Source: a virus. Taken from it: a DNA stretch of 31,617 nucleotides. Shown here one piece after another: positions 19,542-27,061 of the stretch. The stretch covers positions 1-31,617 of the IMG/VR virus record IMGVR_UViG_3300049916_000204; one strand, 5' to 3'. The notes beneath the pieces were generated by a model, which was given only the letters and a program-made list of their open reading frames with translations, was not told where the DNA came from and made no database searches. The position numbers and the translations under genes are program-made. Position 1 is the first letter of the stretch. Every line of letters starts with the position of its first letter.

Positions 19542-19571
19542 CAAATATACAGCTTTTTTACCGTTATCAAA
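19542..19571 (-). promoter_or_regulatory. Host-like promoter of the micropeptide cassette
   Basis: On the minus strand TTTG (19571-19568), 18 bp, TATATTTG (19549-19542) matches the Bacteroidota -33/-7 consensus in every defined base. It is 30 bp upstream of micropeptide A and has the same 18-bp spacing as the promoter at 29364-29393. Confidence 0.75.
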
Positions 19572-19797: not shown

Positions 19798-20553
19798 TTA
19801 ATTTAAAATTGTGAAACCTGTTTGATCTTTGCGCGCCGCGCCTTTAGCCTTTAGCCCTAAAATTACGCCGTTATATTTGAGCATCTGTAGGTCTGACTTA
19901 TCGCCGTCCACCACATCAGTAGACCACCACCGTTTTGGCAGCTCATTAAAAACCGCCGCGACATTTATCCCGTGCTTTATTGCTAGCTCAGTTTTGACGG
20001 CGTTATCTTCCGCCCGTGAAAATGTCACTGTGTAATTTGGGTGACCTTTGTACCTTATAGCGCGCTGTATATTTTTGGTATAGTCATAAAATACAGCGTG
20101 CGGTTGTAGTGTCTCAATATCCAGAAACCCGTATTTTTTCAACATATATATAAAATCTATGTCACTAGTACCGTTTAAACGAAAAGCAACTTTGTAACCG
20201 CCCCTCTTAGCTTTTGCAGTCTCTTGTGTAATTTCATTAGTTAATTTATTTAAAAAAGCTAATTTGTTTTTGATGAATAGCTCAGTTTTATTAACGCGCG
20301 CTTTTATTACATTTGAAAATGCACCGCGACCGGCTGAAACCAAGCAAGCAGCCGCGCAACCTTTGGACGCGTGCGGGCATAGGTTACGCCCTTCGCTGTT
20401 TTGGTTGTATGGCATCAAATAAAGTATAAAAGTCTTAATTTCATTCTTTGCTGTTTTGGCATTCGTGCTGCCTGGTGAAAGTAATTTTTTTGGCATATTA
20501 GGTACGGCCATCGAAACGGCATCCCATACATTAGATTCAAATTTAGTAGACAT
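19798..20553 (-). CDS. GP88-family phage protein
   Basis: A 251-aa protein starting MSTKFESNVWDAVSMAVPNM. The cysteine motif CPHASKGCAAACLVSAGRG (C59, C66, C70) followed by ARVNKTELFIKNKLAFLNKL and, in the middle, VAFRLNGTSDIDF is the signature of the Gene product 88 family found in many phages, whose biochemical role is unknown. The clustered cysteines could hold a metal or iron-sulphur site. I chose the ATG at 20553: it has an AT-rich leader (TAAAAATAAAAATATG), while the ATG ten codons upstream (20583) lies inside a TATGTTTG promoter box. The gene is directly under a regulatory region with phased TTAACATT repeats. Confidence 0.8.
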   Translation of the reverse strand: MSTKFESNVWDAVSMAVPNMPKKLLSPGSTNAKTAKNEIKTFILYLMPYNQNSEGRNLCPHASKGCAAACLVSAGRGAFSNVIKARVNKTELFIKNKLAFLNKLTNEITQETAKAKRGGYKVAFRLNGTSDIDFIYMLKKYGFLDIETLQPHAVFYDYTKNIQRAIRYKGHPNYTVTFSRAEDNAVKTELAIKHGINVAAVFNELPKRWWSTDVVDGDKSDLQMLKYNGVILGLKAKGAARKDQTGFTILN

Positions 20554-20576: not shown

Positions 20577-20646
20577 CAAACATAAGGCGTCCAATGTAGC
20601 TTAATGTTAACTCAATGTTAAGAAACGCGCGCCCAATGTTAAGAAA
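20577..20646 (-). promoter_or_regulatory. Promoter B: TATGTTTG box with phased TTAACATT repeats
   Basis: On the minus strand a TATGTTTG box (20584-20577) is preceded by TTAACATT copies at 20610-20603, 20621-20614 and 20642-20635. The nearest two are 11 bp apart and the third 21 bp further, so all lie on one helical face. The first T of the nearest copy is 26 bp upstream of the box, exactly as in the region at 21722-21777. The -33 position holds the end of a repeat rather than TTTG, suggesting activator-dependent transcription of the GP88 gene. Confidence 0.65.
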
Positions 20647-20661
20647 TTGTAAATAAGAAAA

Positions 20662-20738
20662 GCAGTAGACCTACTGCGTTTAACGATAGACCTACTGCGT
20701 TTAAGAACCTACTGCGTTTAAGAACCTACTGCGTTTAA
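20662..20738 (-). repeat. Four-copy array of the 13-mer TTAAACGCAGTAG (candidate iterons)
   Basis: Exact copies lie at 20671-20683, 20692-20704, 20709-20721 and 20726-20738 (plus-strand ctactgcgtttaa), spaced 21, 17 and 17 bp. The leftmost copy is part of a perfect inverted repeat, gcagtag-ac-ctactgc (20662-20677). An A/T-only-rich tract (20739-20785) borders the array on its right. Tandem sites beside an AT-rich tract are a common layout for replication origins. Confidence 0.85.
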
Positions 20739-20775
20739 GAATTATTTTTTTTCTAAAGCACTTAAGAAAATTTTT

Positions 20776-21060
20776 TCAAATATACATCGCATCGTAATCG
20801 TGAATCGATTCCCAATATTTTACTGAGTTCTTATAACTTCCTGTTGATCCTGTTGCAACTTCATCACGTGAAGGGATGTAATTACCATACGCATCCTTGT
20901 GGCTTTGCTTGGGTAGCATACAAGCTCCAGAGCTTAGTAGCTCCACCGCTTTCCTTCCCATAGTACCTTCCAGGTGCCATACTGATCCGTTATCTATTAG
21001 GCGTTGAATATTATCAACGCCATTCTCCTTTTGCAGTTTTCTAATTTTCTGATAGTTCAT
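20776..21060 (-). CDS. Conserved phage protein of unknown function, 94 aa
   Basis: A 94-aa protein starting MNYQKIRKLQKENGVDNIQR. The segment LIDNGSVWHLEGTMGRKAVE, then LLSSGACMLPKQSHKDAYGN and YIPSRDEVATGSTGSYKNS, is a pattern I recognise from unnamed small phage proteins in several host phyla. It is soluble and mixed alpha/beta, with conserved W, G and P positions that suggest a folded domain rather than a linker. It overlaps the 73-aa gene upstream by 20 bases and ends before the four-copy 13-mer array. Function unknown. Confidence 0.75.
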   Translation of the reverse strand: MNYQKIRKLQKENGVDNIQRLIDNGSVWHLEGTMGRKAVELLSSGACMLPKQSHKDAYGNYIPSRDEVATGSTGSYKNSVKYWESIHDYDAMYI

Positions 21061-21262
21061 TTTTTATCCTTTCTCTAATGTTAACTAAAATCAAATCGCT
21101 CATTTCATTGCGCTGCTTTATCGTTGTGCTTAATACAGCATCTATCCAGCCAAAAAAATCAGTAGCATCAAAAGTTACTGTTTTTTCGCCCTGAGATATA
21201 TGAACCTCTCCATCGCTACCCCAAACTGTATCTACCATACCTATATATGTATTATTATCCAT
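21041..21262 (-). CDS. 73-aa protein of unknown function
   Basis: A 73-aa protein starting MDNNTYIGMVDTVWGSDGEV, with HISQGEKTVTFDATDFFGWI and a helical end (NEMSDLILVNIRERIKNEL). I chose the ATG at 21262, two bases after the upstream gene's stop; an ATG nine codons earlier (21289) would overlap that gene by 26 bases. A beta-rich first half and helical second half are visible. It belongs to a four-gene run (21697 to 20776) with tight overlaps that starts below promoter A. Not recognised. Confidence 0.7.
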   Translation of the reverse strand: MDNNTYIGMVDTVWGSDGEVHISQGEKTVTFDATDFFGWIDAVLSTTIKQRNEMSDLILVNIRERIKNELSEN

Positions 21263-21263
21263 C

Positions 21264-21551
21264 TTATAAAAATTTAATTGTTTTACCATTTACTTTTGCT
21301 TCTATGAGCGTGTTTAAATTAATCATCTTAAATGATTGCTTCTGCATATCATATACGACCATTAATCCTCTTGATGCCGGATCAAAGGACATACCTTTGC
21401 CCGTCACACCTTTTTTAACTGCTCTTCTGCAGTTAATAGTTCTAATAGTACCATCCTTCTTTTCGAATGTAGCACTGAAGATTTTACCACCTTTAGTGGC
21501 TTCTTTTAGTTTATCCACCTTTGTTTGTGGTGCTGTTAATATCCAAGTCAT
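21264..21551 (-). CDS. SH3-barrel (WYL_2-like) protein
   Basis: A 95-aa protein starting MTWILTAPQTKVDKLKEATK. FEKKDGTIRTINCRRAVKKG, then GMSFDPASRGLMVVYDMQKQ and SFKMINLNTLIEAKVNGKTI, fits the small SH3 beta-barrel group related to the WYL_2 domain common in phages of Bacteroidota and others: KDG-x-x-R-x-(L/I)N, YDM-x-K and a closing strand. Such barrels may bind nucleic acid or small ligands, but the role here is unknown. Its ATG overlaps the preceding TAA by one base (TAATG). Confidence 0.75.
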   Translation of the reverse strand: MTWILTAPQTKVDKLKEATKGGKIFSATFEKKDGTIRTINCRRAVKKGVTGKGMSFDPASRGLMVVYDMQKQSFKMINLNTLIEAKVNGKTIKFL

Positions 21552-21697
21552 TATATAGTGATTTTAAATGTTATACCATCTTTTGTTATATTAGGGGATT
21601 CTGTCGCGAGCTTCGCAAGCTCCGCGGTTATCTTAGCATCTTGTGGGCTGAATCCCTTAGCCTCAAGAATTTGCTTTAGTGTCGGTTTTTTAGACAT
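21551..21697 (-). CDS. 48-aa protein of unknown function under promoter A
   Basis: A 48-aa ORF starting MSKKPTLKQILEAKGFSPQD, then AKITAELAKLATESPNITKD and GITFKITI. The first 30 residues are a likely helix pair and the end a short strand. It is the first gene below promoter A (box at 21722-21729) and is coupled to the WYL_2-like gene by TAATG. The amphipathic KQILEAKGF and AELAKLA helices could mediate protein contacts. It is not recognised as a named family. Confidence 0.7.
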   Translation of the reverse strand: MSKKPTLKQILEAKGFSPQDAKITAELAKLATESPNITKDGITFKITI

Positions 21698-21721
21698 ATC
21701 TTTTGTTTTAAGATTATGGTA

Positions 21722-21777
21722 CAAACATACAAAGCCCTGGAGAATCTAATGTTAAGCTAACGTTAAGAAATGGTTAA
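21722..21777 (-). promoter_or_regulatory. Promoter A: TATGTTTG box with phased TTAAC repeats
   Basis: On the minus strand a TATGTTTG box (21729-21722) is preceded by TTAACATT (21755-21748), TTAACGTT (21766-21759) and TTAACCAT (21777-21770), each 11 bp apart. The nearest repeat begins 26 bp upstream of the box, the same spacing as promoter B. The ATG of the first gene is 25 bp below the box. Confidence 0.65.
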
Positions 21778-21810
21778 GTGTCGGATGTGTCGGATGTGTC
21801 GGATGTGTCG
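21778..21810. repeat. Tandem 9-bp repeat, about 3.7 copies
   Basis: The unit gtgtcggat is repeated three times perfectly from 21778 to 21804, followed by a partial gtgtcg. It sits directly between the TTAAC repeats of promoter A and two 13-mer copies. It may be a binding array or simple slippage. Confidence 0.85.
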
Positions 21811-21816
21811 CTTACC

Positions 21817-21875
21817 CTACTGCGTTTAAGAGTAACCCTACTGCGTTTAACGATAAATCCCCCAAGATGGGGGAT
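21817..21875 (-). repeat. Two 13-mer copies plus a C-stem hairpin
   Basis: Exact TTAAACGCAGTAG copies (plus-strand 21817-21829 and 21838-21850) are 21 bp apart. Just upstream in transcription is a perfect hairpin ATCCCCC-ATCTT-GGGGGAT (21857-21875), followed only by TTTATC, so it is at best a weak terminator after the large terminase gene (stop at 21953). Confidence 0.75.
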
Positions 21876-21952: not shown

Positions 21953-23164
21953 CTACCTAATAGTATAAGAACCTTTTGTGCGATTTACTAGAACGTACTG
22001 AGCAGCGTAGCGGATGGCATCAATACAGTGGTTCCATTTATCTACAGGCTTTGTCTGACCCTTAGTAGCCCATACGTAGTTATTAAGCTCTTTAATCAGC
22101 TCTGTGGAGTCAGGATCAACTATTAAGTCATAATCCTGGAGTAGTGCTATTCCCGACAAGATAGACCCACTGCGTTTAACGGTCGGGGTAATGTTACATC
22201 CCTTCAGCTTAATCTCCTTAATCAGTCGTGGTTCTGCAGAGTCCGACACTATGAGGTGCGGACCTGCATAACGAATATTAAAGTCTGCTATTTGCGTAGT
22301 AGACATCCCTGTCCTAGCATACATTACCTTAAGGAATATACGTTTATTGCCTTTGTCGATGGCTAGCTTCACAAGTGTAGTGGGGTCAACAGAGAAACCG
22401 AAATCCTGTCCGAAGATAGTCTCATAGTTATCGTTAAACTCTCCTACCCTCCAATTGGTAAATATAACACCCTCTTGCTTTTCCATCCATCCACCAAGTA
22501 TCTGGTGTGTGTACTTCTCAGGTCTACGTCTTCTAATCTCTGCTATCTGATTCAGGAACGACTGCGACAGGTTATCAGTGTTATCTAAGTATGTCGTATG
22601 TATATATGTAATCCCTGACTTAATACCGTTGAAGCCCTCGGGAATGTCTCTGTTGGCGTAGAAACGCCCCCAGATCCAGTGTTCTTTAGTGGTTGGGTTA
22701 AGTATCAGTATAACTCTATTGGGTTTAGTCTTGACTCTAACAGACTGATCAATCTTATCGAATGTGTCCTCGTCTATCAGTTCTTCAGCCTCATCTAGGA
22801 CAAAGGTGGTTATTGCGTTTAACGATTTGAGTGATGCTGTCTGATTCCCTGAGGCGGTGCGTATCCCTTTAAACATAATCGATGAGCCTGTCTTTACGTT
22901 TGTTATCTCGTCCTTCGTTATGCGAAAGTCCTCGACAACTCCCATAAGCTCCAGCTTCTCAATGAACTCAGGAATAATCGATGAAGATGCAGATACCATC
23001 GTGTACCGTGTAAATAGTACCTTGTGTCCTTTCTCGTAAGTTAGGAGCAACAGGAACACGTTAACAGCAAAAGACTTACCAGACCCTCGACCACCTGTGG
23101 TGATAAAGTATCTGGAGTCATTGCCAAACGATTTATACTTCGGGTTCAGATTCGGTACCTTCAT
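21953..23164 (-). CDS. terL: Terminase large subunit (PBSX / Terminase_3-like)
   Basis: A 403-aa DNA-packaging motor. The N-terminal ATPase has Walker A GGRGSGKS (residues 24-31), Walker B FVLDEAEEL (121-129) and a coupling motif LNPTTKEHWIW (155-165). The C-terminal RNase-H-fold nuclease shows D254 (GQDFGF), D308 (IVSDSAEP) and D382 (NHCIDAIRY), the expected metal ligands. It cuts concatemers and pumps DNA through the portal. It overlaps the small-subunit gene by 32 bases. Two exact 9-mer copies fall in the coding sequence, in different reading frames: V-K-R-S at 22171-22179 and L-N-A at 22814-22822. Its distance from portal and capsid genes is notable. Confidence 0.95.
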   Translation of the reverse strand: MKVPNLNPKYKSFGNDSRYFITTGGRGSGKSFAVNVFLLLLTYEKGHKVLFTRYTMVSASSSIIPEFIEKLELMGVVEDFRITKDEITNVKTGSSIMFKGIRTASGNQTASLKSLNAITTFVLDEAEELIDEDTFDKIDQSVRVKTKPNRVILILNPTTKEHWIWGRFYANRDIPEGFNGIKSGITYIHTTYLDNTDNLSQSFLNQIAEIRRRRPEKYTHQILGGWMEKQEGVIFTNWRVGEFNDNYETIFGQDFGFSVDPTTLVKLAIDKGNKRIFLKVMYARTGMSTTQIADFNIRYAGPHLIVSDSAEPRLIKEIKLKGCNITPTVKRSGSILSGIALLQDYDLIVDPDSTELIKELNNYVWATKGQTKPVDKWNHCIDAIRYAAQYVLVNRTKGSYTIR

Positions 23165-23555: not shown

Positions 23556-23751
23556 ATATTTTATCGTATAATTCCCATATAGCATCATACCATTCAGTTT
23601 TGCTATATATCTTTTCTCCCAGTTTAGTCTGACCTTTATACTCTATTTGTATACGGTAATCCAATCCTTCAGGGATTGGGTATATCTTATAGCCTTTATT
23701 GAAACAGTAACTTTGAGCTTCCATATTCCTAGAAGCTTCCAGTCGTTTCAT
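23536..23751 (-). CDS. 71-aa protein of unknown function
   Basis: A 71-aa basic protein starting MKRLEASRNMEAQSYCFNKG, then YKIYPIPEGLDYRIQIEYKG and a helical end (TEWYDAIWELYDKIYAKKEA). The layout (helix, beta hairpin, helix) suggests a compact alpha/beta domain; YRIQIEYKG and the conserved KTEWYDAIWELY look like a small phage family I cannot name. The ATG at 23751 leaves a 23-base overlap with the DnaA-like gene; an upstream TTG is possible. It may cooperate with the terminase or replication genes on either side. Confidence 0.68.
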   Translation of the reverse strand: MKRLEASRNMEAQSYCFNKGYKIYPIPEGLDYRIQIEYKGQTKLGEKIYSKTEWYDAIWELYDKIYAKKEA

Positions 23752-24310
23752 AAGAGCCGATAATTTCCGTTTTTTGGTTCCTCGGTTCAATTGCAAATCC
23801 TTTTAACATTACACCTATTCTAAATTCAGCATCATCAAGTTTGTCACTTGGTATCTTAAGTAACAGGTCTACAAGACGCTCAATGTCTTTACGATAAGGT
23901 CTGACGTTACTTAATTGTAACTGAAGGTCAGTTATTTTGTTTTTCAGATCATCTATCTCTAAGTCTCTTTTATCTACACTTTCATAAACATCTCCCAGAC
24001 TACCGAACACCTCAACACAAGTATCGTACATCTTCTTGTTTAATGGAGATAAAAGTATATCCTCGTTAAAGTTATTCATAGCGTGCAGTACTGTAGCGTG
24101 GTTCTTATTCATATACTTGGCTACGTAATTCTTAGCACCTATCCTAACACCAGACCTACACAAGTATTCGTGTGTTATCTTATAGAATATAGAACGAGCC
24201 ATAACATTCTTATGGTCTCTTACTTTGCTTCTAAGGTCTCTGCCTGTAACTGTTTTTACTATCTTCTCTATCCTTGATACTTCTGATGCTATCTCACTGT
24301 TTATCGTCAT
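23729..24310 (-). CDS. DnaA-domain-IV-like DNA-binding protein
   Basis: A 193-aa protein starting MTINSEIASEVSRIEKIVKT. Residues about 13-82 follow the DnaA C-terminal DNA-binding domain: IEKIVKTVTGRDLRSKVR, then NVMARSIFYKITHEY and VAKYMNKNHATVLHAMNNF, where NHATVLHA mirrors the DHTTVLHA signature that contacts the DnaA box. The rest is a coiled coil (KRDLEIDDLKNKITDLQLQL). It lacks the AAA+ ATPase domain, so it cannot melt DNA by itself as DnaA does. It may recruit replication proteins, act as a regulator, or compete with host DnaA. The dispersed TTAAACGCA sites are candidate targets (inference). It overlaps its neighbours on both sides. Confidence 0.78.
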   Translation of the reverse strand: MTINSEIASEVSRIEKIVKTVTGRDLRSKVRDHKNVMARSIFYKITHEYLCRSGVRIGAKNYVAKYMNKNHATVLHAMNNFNEDILLSPLNKKMYDTCVEVFGSLGDVYESVDKRDLEIDDLKNKITDLQLQLSNVRPYRKDIERLVDLLLKIPSDKLDDAEFRIGVMLKGFAIEPRNQKTEIIGSYETTGSF

Positions 24311-26101: not shown

Positions 26102-26504
26102 ATAATATTTTCAATGGTTTAAATATACTGTTTATAAAACAAGAATTACAATTTGTGGGCTTTCTATTCTCTCTAAAAACCCTATTGTACACCTTAATCA
26201 TTTGCTCTACTTGTTCGGCATCTAATCTTCCAACTCCGCTTTCAATTATCTCACTAACAAAATCATACTCGTGTTCAAGTAAGCACTCAGGCTTCTTGTA
26301 TCTGAACTTCTTATTGAGAACCTCCTTACGATGGTCACAACCGCAATCTTCTCCAGCTAAGAACTTTACAGCCTTCTTTATTCCTGTGGCTGTGGTTATC
26401 TTCTCTATGGTATCACCCAGCCCTTTTGGGGCTGAGTCATACTTAGCTTTCCACTGCTTATATGCTTTAGTTCGTTTATCCTTTGGTGCTTCTGGTGTAC
26501 TCAT
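26085..26504 (-). CDS. Conserved phage protein with CxC and CxxC zinc-type motifs
   Basis: A 139-aa basic protein. KGLGDTIEKITTATGIKKAV, then FLAGEDCGCDHRKEVLNKKF and KPECLLEHEYDFVSE, and a late YNRVFRENRKPTNCNSCF, form a pattern I recognise from flavobacterial phages next to the sigma-factor gene. C54, C56 and C119, C122 could form a zinc site. The fold is unknown. The ATG overlaps the sigma factor's TGA (ATGA), so the two are probably co-translated and may act together in transcription control. Confidence 0.75.
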   Translation of the reverse strand: MSTPEAPKDKRTKAYKQWKAKYDSAPKGLGDTIEKITTATGIKKAVKFLAGEDCGCDHRKEVLNKKFRYKKPECLLEHEYDFVSEIIESGVGRLDAEQVEQMIKVYNRVFRENRKPTNCNSCFINSIFKPLKILYGTYK

Positions 26505-27061
26505 ATCTTATCGTAATCTTGATTGAAAAAGTCTTCTATGTCCTCACCGAACTTTTCTTCAATAATTTTTCTGTAGTTCTTGCAAGAGTTATATATGCTC
26601 GTAAGTGAAATCTTTGTATCGCCAGCAATGTCTCTAAGAGATTGAGGAGTGTAATAGTATAACCTGAATAACTTCTGGTCATACCAATGCCAGGTGGAAA
26701 CCTCCTCATCAATGGCTTTAAATATCGTAAGGTATGCCTCCTCCATACTGTCATTCTCCTCTCTCTCTTCTGGAATTTCCGCAAGAGCCGAAAGGATACT
26801 GATGTTTTCAACATCTGAGTAGTCTTTACTGATTTCTGCTTTTTGACCTTTTTTAGAGTCATAGAACAGGTTACGTAAAGTGATATATATAAAGTAAGAA
26901 TTGACCTCACCATCTTTTATTATTTTTTCAGGTTTATCTAAATACTTGTTCAGTCTCAAATACATATCCTGCACAATATCATTTGCCAGGTGTATATCCT
27001 TACAGATAGACATAGCCATTGAAATCCACTCCTTATGCCTCTTAGTCAGTATCTCCCACAT
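26501..27061 (-). CDS. Sigma-70-family transcription factor
   Basis: A 186-aa protein of ECF-like size. Region 2 is visible at residues about 8-75 (HKEWISMAMSICKDIHLAND, IVQDMYLRLNKYL, YFIYITLRNLFYDSKKG) and region 4 at about 135-175, with a helix-turn-helix (SLRDIAGDTKISLTSIYNSC). An acidic linker joins them. It probably redirects host RNA polymerase to phage promoters, perhaps those of the virion operons that lack host-like TAnnTTTG boxes. It overlaps the 55-aa membrane gene upstream by 20 bases and is coupled to the next gene. Confidence 0.8.
   Translation of the reverse strand: MWEILTKRHKEWISMAMSICKDIHLANDIVQDMYLRLNKYLDKPEKIIKDGEVNSYFIYITLRNLFYDSKKGQKAEISKDYSDVENISILSALAEIPEEREENDSMEEAYLTIFKAIDEEVSTWHWYDQKLFRLYYYTPQSLRDIAGDTKISLTSIYNSCKNYRKIIEEKFGEDIEDFFNQDYDKI

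Follow-up and report, generated by a model that had tools for sequence, protein, structure and literature searches.

When PhoB-type regulators act as class II activators, 11-bp direct repeats replace the −35 element, as in the pho box of E. coli and the PhoP TTAACA repeats of B. subtilis. Phages can make use of such sites. Host PhoB controls pstS of cyanophage P-SSM2 and genes of S-PM2d, for which expression and binding have been shown, and the PhoB-bound promoters of S-PM2d include those of DNA polymerase and UvsX (PMC10976474). The cyanobacterial Pho box is PyTTAAPyPyT/A (PMC10976474). In the Bacteroidetes, primary-sigma promoters consist of TTTG at −33 and TAnnTTTG at −7 (PMC7366714, PMC9723704), the latter occupying positions −12 to −5 in flavobacteria (PMC9723704), and in Bacteroides fragilis, PhoB binds to the promoter of pst (PMC3547664).

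We analysed a viral DNA of 31.6 kb (IMG/VR record IMGVR_UViG_3300049916_000204; its 31,617 nt are the window hereafter), in which all main genes, including those for terminase, portal, tail, an ERF-like annealing protein and a small sigma-factor-like protein, lie on the minus strand. Its terminase is 53% identical to that of Nonlabens phage P12024L/S, cultured members of its family are Inhavirus-like, and IMG/VR has at least about 50 contigs with terminases at least 81% identical to it and many more near 60%. The entry 'Shigella phage Henu10' (OQ791282.1) gives a terminase match of the same identity and length as Riemerella anatipestifer phages, and its host label may be wrong. To judge from the promoters described below, accessory genes of marine Bacteroidota phages appear to be driven in blocks from promoters with a site for host PhoB.

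Anatomy and conservation of promoters P1 and P2

P1 is the region above the gene at 21697 and P2 that above the gene at 20553, both read on the minus strand. These regions and the next promoter slot, P3, contain the following features.

21857–21875, minus strand: hairpin resembling a terminator where the terminase operon ends, from a consensus scan only
21817–21850, minus strand: TTAAACGCAGTAG array above P1, separating it from the terminase gene; the two exact copies (21850 and 21829) are 21 bp apart
21748–21777, minus strand: putative Pho box of P1, TTAACCATTTC TTAACGTTAGC TTAACATT, 11-bp direct repeats conserved in relatives
21722–21729, minus strand: −7 box of P1, TATGTTTG
21554–21697, minus strand: 48-aa gene that opens the P1 cassette, without a family match (family F4)
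20671–20738, minus strand: TTAAACGCAGTAG array above P2; four exact copies (20738, 20721, 20704, 20683) in steps of 17, 17 and 21 bp
20662–20677, minus strand: terminator-like hairpin formed from the last P2 array copy (GCAGTAG-GT-CTACTGC), followed by TTTTCTT
20603–20642, minus strand: putative Pho box of P2, with TTAACATT starting at 20642, 20621 and 20610; conserved in relatives
20577–20584, minus strand: −7 box of P2, TATGTTTG
19798–20553, minus strand: P2 gene, GP88 family (PF17338, phrog_1617)
19542–19549, minus strand: −7 box of the P3 slot, TATATTTG, in a TTTG-type promoter

Reading the minus strand anew, we recovered the order given in a preliminary description of this DNA: at both regions, TTAAACGCAGTAG copies are followed by TTAAC repeats and then by TATGTTTG, with the nearest TTAAC starting exactly 26 bp above the box and TTTC just before the distal TTAAC of the pair. 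The 11-bp phase that it reported applies to every step in P1, where TTAACCA, TTAACGTT and TTAACATT start at 21777, 21766 and 21755, but in P2 only to the second step, the outermost TTAACATT lying 21 bp from the next. As in Pho promoters, at least two half-sites stand in 11-bp phase over −35/−33, the −33/−35 element is weak or missing and the distance from repeat to box is fixed; there is no TTTG at −33, the repeats standing there instead, and TAnnTTTG at −7 is that of Bacteroidota primary-sigma promoters. Transcripts are predicted to start about 5 nt below each box, near 21717 in P1 and near 20572 in P2, which is some 20 and 19 nt, respectively, upstream of the ATG codons at 21697 and 20553. 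The longest open reading frame of the P2 gene (19798–20583, minus strand) begins with an ATG at 20583, inside the TATGTTTG box and upstream of where the transcript is predicted to begin; 20553 is the most likely start of the GP88 protein. Between the array and the putative Pho box of P1, the short tandem repeat CGACACATC(C) runs in steps of about 10 bp (21778–21814, minus strand), and other short repeats (GACAAACTT...) take its place in relatives.

The pattern TTAAC-N6-TTAAC-N21-TAnnTTTG occurs at exactly two places in the window, P1 and P2; with two mismatches allowed, shuffled sequences contained 0.13 matches on average and none of 100 reached two. TATGTTTG by itself is not rare in the window (five sites versus two expected). 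The arrangement, whose absence from close relatives the preliminary description would have taken as a refutation, is conserved there: dozens of related phages have it at homologous sites, on the gene strand every time, with P1 immediately downstream of the terminase gene, P2 some 1.2–2 kb on and P3 further on. The proximal TTAAC lies 26 bp from TAnnTTTG in 36 distinct promoters of relatives, and the repeat step is 11 bp in 35, with none on the opposite strand. Pho-type promoters, as we call those with TTAAC repeats, are also common in other members of the family; 64 of 86 other contigs share proteins with the window.

One slot can carry either promoter form. P1 of close relatives is of the TTAAC type in 25 distinct cases and of the TTTG type in one (TTTG-N20-TATATTTG), and in the clade with about 60% terminase identity all nine distinct members have the TTTG form; P3 has the TTTG form in the window (at 19549) and the repeat form in five relatives. 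Repeat and TTTG thus take each other's place at a single position, as expected of an activator-dependent promoter, which supports the earlier suggestion of an activator-type promoter whose repeats replace the TTTG at −33.

The genes behind a given promoter vary among relatives, and family F6 (MATRCTIKI...) lies behind P1 in some and behind P2 in others while array and promoter stay in place, indicating that the slots are retained and their cargo is exchanged. A Pfam and PHROGs scan found no phosphate-acquisition gene (pstS, phoA) among 86 downstream phage proteins, which include ERF annealing proteins, WYL_2, GP88, NADAR, YqaJ and DUF3127, as well as methylases, an exonuclease and a nucleotide diphosphohydrolase domain. 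For these proteins we therefore rejected phosphate genes as the cargo of the Pho-type promoters, and with them a cyanophage-style phosphate-metabolism (auxiliary metabolic gene) cassette, in which a phosphate-acquisition gene lies under the Pho box.

The TTAAACGCAGTAG element

With up to three mismatches, TTAAACGCAGTAG has 34 matches in the window versus 12.1 expected, and no shuffle reached 34. Across 760 kb of relatives, the gene strand carries 223 exact and 223 one-mismatch copies and the other strand none (446:0). The place homologous to the P1 array holds two to six copies in relatives, and clusters of this size generally stand at operon ends, immediately before the following promoter, whichever its type. 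Tandem clusters were found in at least 116 viral contigs and in no bacterial genome among about 85,000 genomes scanned; the cluster-bearing phages examined in full all belong to one family, one member of which lacks TTAAACGCAGTAG, yet has a Pho-type promoter. The spacing between neighbouring TTAAACGCAGT copies is, with few exceptions, an odd number (17, 19, 21, 23, 25 or 27); these values are not multiples of 10.5, and helical phasing was rejected for the array on that ground.

Copies within coding sequence (at most one mismatch) mostly encode KRS, and one of them lies in the terminase gene.

22167–22179, minus strand: terminase-gene copy, TTAAACGCAGTGGGTCTAT

Among 28 distinct terminase genes, no stretch of nucleotides stays invariant over a greater length than this copy (19 nt, the next being 11), whereas 298 of 336 conserved codons vary synonymously elsewhere in the same genes, indicating that selection acts on the nucleotides of TTAAACGCAGTAG.

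Several candidate roles were discarded. As a host Chi-like or other host-wide signal, TTAAACGCAGTAG is not over-represented and near chance for a 13-mer, with a copy in 26 versus about 11 control copies in 199 Flavobacteriaceae genomes, and the wider genome scan gave no tandem clusters. The window has no Rfam match to a known RNA family, and a conserved RNA structure of the arrays was rejected, their folds being not clearly better than shuffles (z −1.85, −1.43 and +1.82). A strict pattern for an array-copy hairpin with a TTTT terminator did not recover it as a repeated feature in relatives. A DnaA-C-like protein as sole reader of the arrays was also rejected, since it is not detectable in several array-bearing phages. 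We conclude that TTAAACGCAGTAG is a separate element, specific to the phage family and not part of the Pho promoter as such; the candidates for its role are a binding site for a phage protein, a recombination site or an RNA-level signal at operon ends.

The arrays might serve as recombination sites, or as shared homology, by which ERF and a RusA-like resolvase move cassettes between slots, a possibility that we consider less likely than not. Cassette exchange would account for the like design of P1 and P2 and is compatible with Pho control of the promoters; the occurrence of F6 under both promoters, the single orientation of all copies and the presence of ERF and RusA-like genes in most family members agree with it, but it leaves unexplained why the terminase-gene copy is the longest invariant run. 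It is improbable that the whole three-part region is one composite unit, with TTAAACGCAGTAG as an upstream activating site for the same promoter. The preliminary description had presented the three parts as one design, and arrays of two to six copies do lie directly above nearly every P1, P2 and P3 promoter of close relatives. However, arrays precede TTTG-type promoters equally, their distance to the Pho box varies, single copies are scattered elsewhere in the genome, inside genes and always on the coding strand, and Pho-type promoters of related phages occur without any copy, so the three parts do not form one unit and TTAAACGCAGTAG is not specific to this promoter class.

The TTAAC repeats at host phosphate genes

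We scanned about 85,000 bacterial and archaeal genomes, one per species (84,980 species), for TTAACRTT-N3-TTAACRTT-N17..19-TAnnTTTG, obtaining 103 stretches; among the 80 matches listed, nearly all are from Bacteroidota. For 75 of the matches listed we examined the first downstream gene, which was a phosphate gene in 28: DUF47/PhoU-like (11), PiT (8), Na/Pi cotransporter (4), phosphate-selective porin O/P (4) and PstS-like (1). The spacer served as an internal control, with phosphate genes behind 11 of 14 N17, 16 of 42 N18 and 0 of 24 N19 matches listed (Fisher p ~6e-6). Over half of the matches listed precede genes without a known phosphate role, and some of the TonB receptors behind matches would fit low-phosphate regulons (PMC8115612). 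At eight Mucilaginibacter loci, Pho-type promoters lie directly above outer-membrane receptors with a carboxypeptidase-regulatory-like domain, candidate phosphate-regulon receptors (cf. Fjoh_3841, PMC8115612). The strict pattern occurs in 2 of 199 Flavobacteriaceae genomes, too rarely to be informative there, suggesting that host sites are more degenerate than phage sites.

In the converse test, we searched roughly 4 kb upstream of pstC in each of 18 Flavobacteriales genomes with a weight matrix built from 37 phage promoters only. The top-scoring site lay directly above pstS in 15 of the 18; TTTAC/TTAAC units stood there in 11-bp phase, mostly with the same 26-bp register to the −7 box. At 3% each, 15 such placements would arise by chance with a probability of about 1e-20. 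This is stronger evidence than the genome scan. A converse test based on Porin_O_P was no more than weakly positive and suggestive, and the pstS test was used in its place. The same site thus stands at pstS, PiT and porin genes, which are canonical Pho genes in the host phylum, and the TTAAC half-site of the phages is nearly that of the cyanobacterial Pho box.

The genome scan, the pstS test, the binding of B. fragilis PhoB to pst (PMC3547664) and the cyanobacterial box argue that the repeats are Pho boxes read by host PhoB. P1 and P2 are very probably promoters activated by this phosphate-starvation regulator of the host, with the repeats as the Bacteroidota Pho box. The preliminary description had called the class phage-specific and without a named system, with a phage sigma factor or DnaA-like protein as possible regulator; the element precedes host phosphate-acquisition genes across the Bacteroidota and points instead to host PhoB, and the reading as a phage-specific activator is probably wrong.

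The window does encode two proteins that could act as such a regulator.

26501–27061: small sigma factor-like gene
23729–24310, minus strand: gene a little upstream of that for the terminase, encoding a protein whose DNA-binding domain resembles the DnaA C terminus

That one of these, or another phage-encoded regulator, binds the TTAAC repeats of a phage-only promoter class is highly improbable. A sigma-70-region-2 protein is encoded by almost all family members, and the near-perfect repeats of the phage promoters are better than the host copies; against this, the element precedes host phosphate genes with the same spacing in genomes of several orders, the −7 box is the ordinary primary-sigma TAnnTTTG, and the DnaA-C-like protein is divergent or undetectable in several family members. 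OmpR-family regulators share direct-repeat sites of 10–11 bp, and another host member of the family with an 11-bp TTAAC-type repeat site may read the element in some taxa, given the many listed matches before non-phosphate genes, but the strong concentration of matches at phosphate genes of five unrelated families, and at pstS promoters in the converse test, makes it most improbable that such a regulator, and not PhoB, is the activator.

Under host PhoB control, the phosphorylated protein, the OmpR-family response regulator of PhoBR, would bind the TTAACATT repeats as tandem dimers from about −60 to −28 and recruit RNA polymerase, whose primary sigma factor would contact TAnnTTTG (−12 to −5); contact with PhoB~P would replace the missing TTTG at −33. 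Each promoter would start a small exchangeable accessory block (GP88, WYL_2-like, small unknowns), with the terminator-like hairpin and the TTAAACGCAGTAG array insulating it from the operon before, and expression of the cassette genes would rise when the host is short of phosphate, either already or as a result of infection.

Implications and comparison with known systems

We tentatively put forward a joint reading, plausible though short of probable as a whole: family-wide control by host phosphate starvation over exchangeable non-phosphate cassettes in Bacteroidota phages, together with a strand-locked 13-bp element, YYCTTAAACGCAGTRGG, that would mark operon borders, be kept at nucleotide level even inside the terminase gene and be read by a phage factor. 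If host PhoB controls the promoters, the cassette genes should switch on in phosphate-short infected cells, providing a testable link from ocean phosphate status to gene expression in marine Bacteroidota phages, which in the literature found is documented so far for cyanophages. The results also offer a usable Bacteroidota Pho-box consensus, TTAACATT-N3-TTAACATT-N17/18-TAnnTTTG (N18 in the phage promoters), and in the strand-locked TTAAACGCAGTAG a clean problem with many natural variants to test.

Like the class II sites of E. coli and B. subtilis, P1 and P2 have direct repeats in 11-bp phase over −35/−33, but the half-site sequence and the primary-sigma promoter consensus differ. With Bacteroidetes primary-sigma promoters they have the −7 box in common, and the TTTG form fills the same phage slot in some relatives; P1 and P2 differ from these in their repeats and in the lack of TTTG at −33. 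The Bacteroidota Pho regulon, described for low-phosphate genes of F. johnsoniae (PMC8115612) and PhoB of B. fragilis (PMC3547664), concerns chromosomal genes and shares the predicted site and activator, judging from pstS, PiT, Na/Pi and porin promoters. We found no Pho-box consensus in the available text of these two accounts, nor a published one for Bacteroidota in the openly accessible literature, although one in a subscription journal could have been missed.

As read here, P1 and P2 share with the cyanophage promoters a host Pho box (TTAA-C type half-site) by which phage genes answer to phosphate stress of the host, and the cargo of P1 and P2 resembles the S-PM2d case, with its non-phosphate genes, more than the pstS case. 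The cyanophage systems involve cyanobacterial hosts and myoviruses, whereas P1 and P2 belong to Bacteroidota-type siphophages with a Bacteroidota −7 box and are further set apart by near-perfect repeats, a fixed 26-bp spacing and accessory cassettes. What is new relative to the cyanophage cases is the host phylum and that the genes driven are mostly not phosphate genes.
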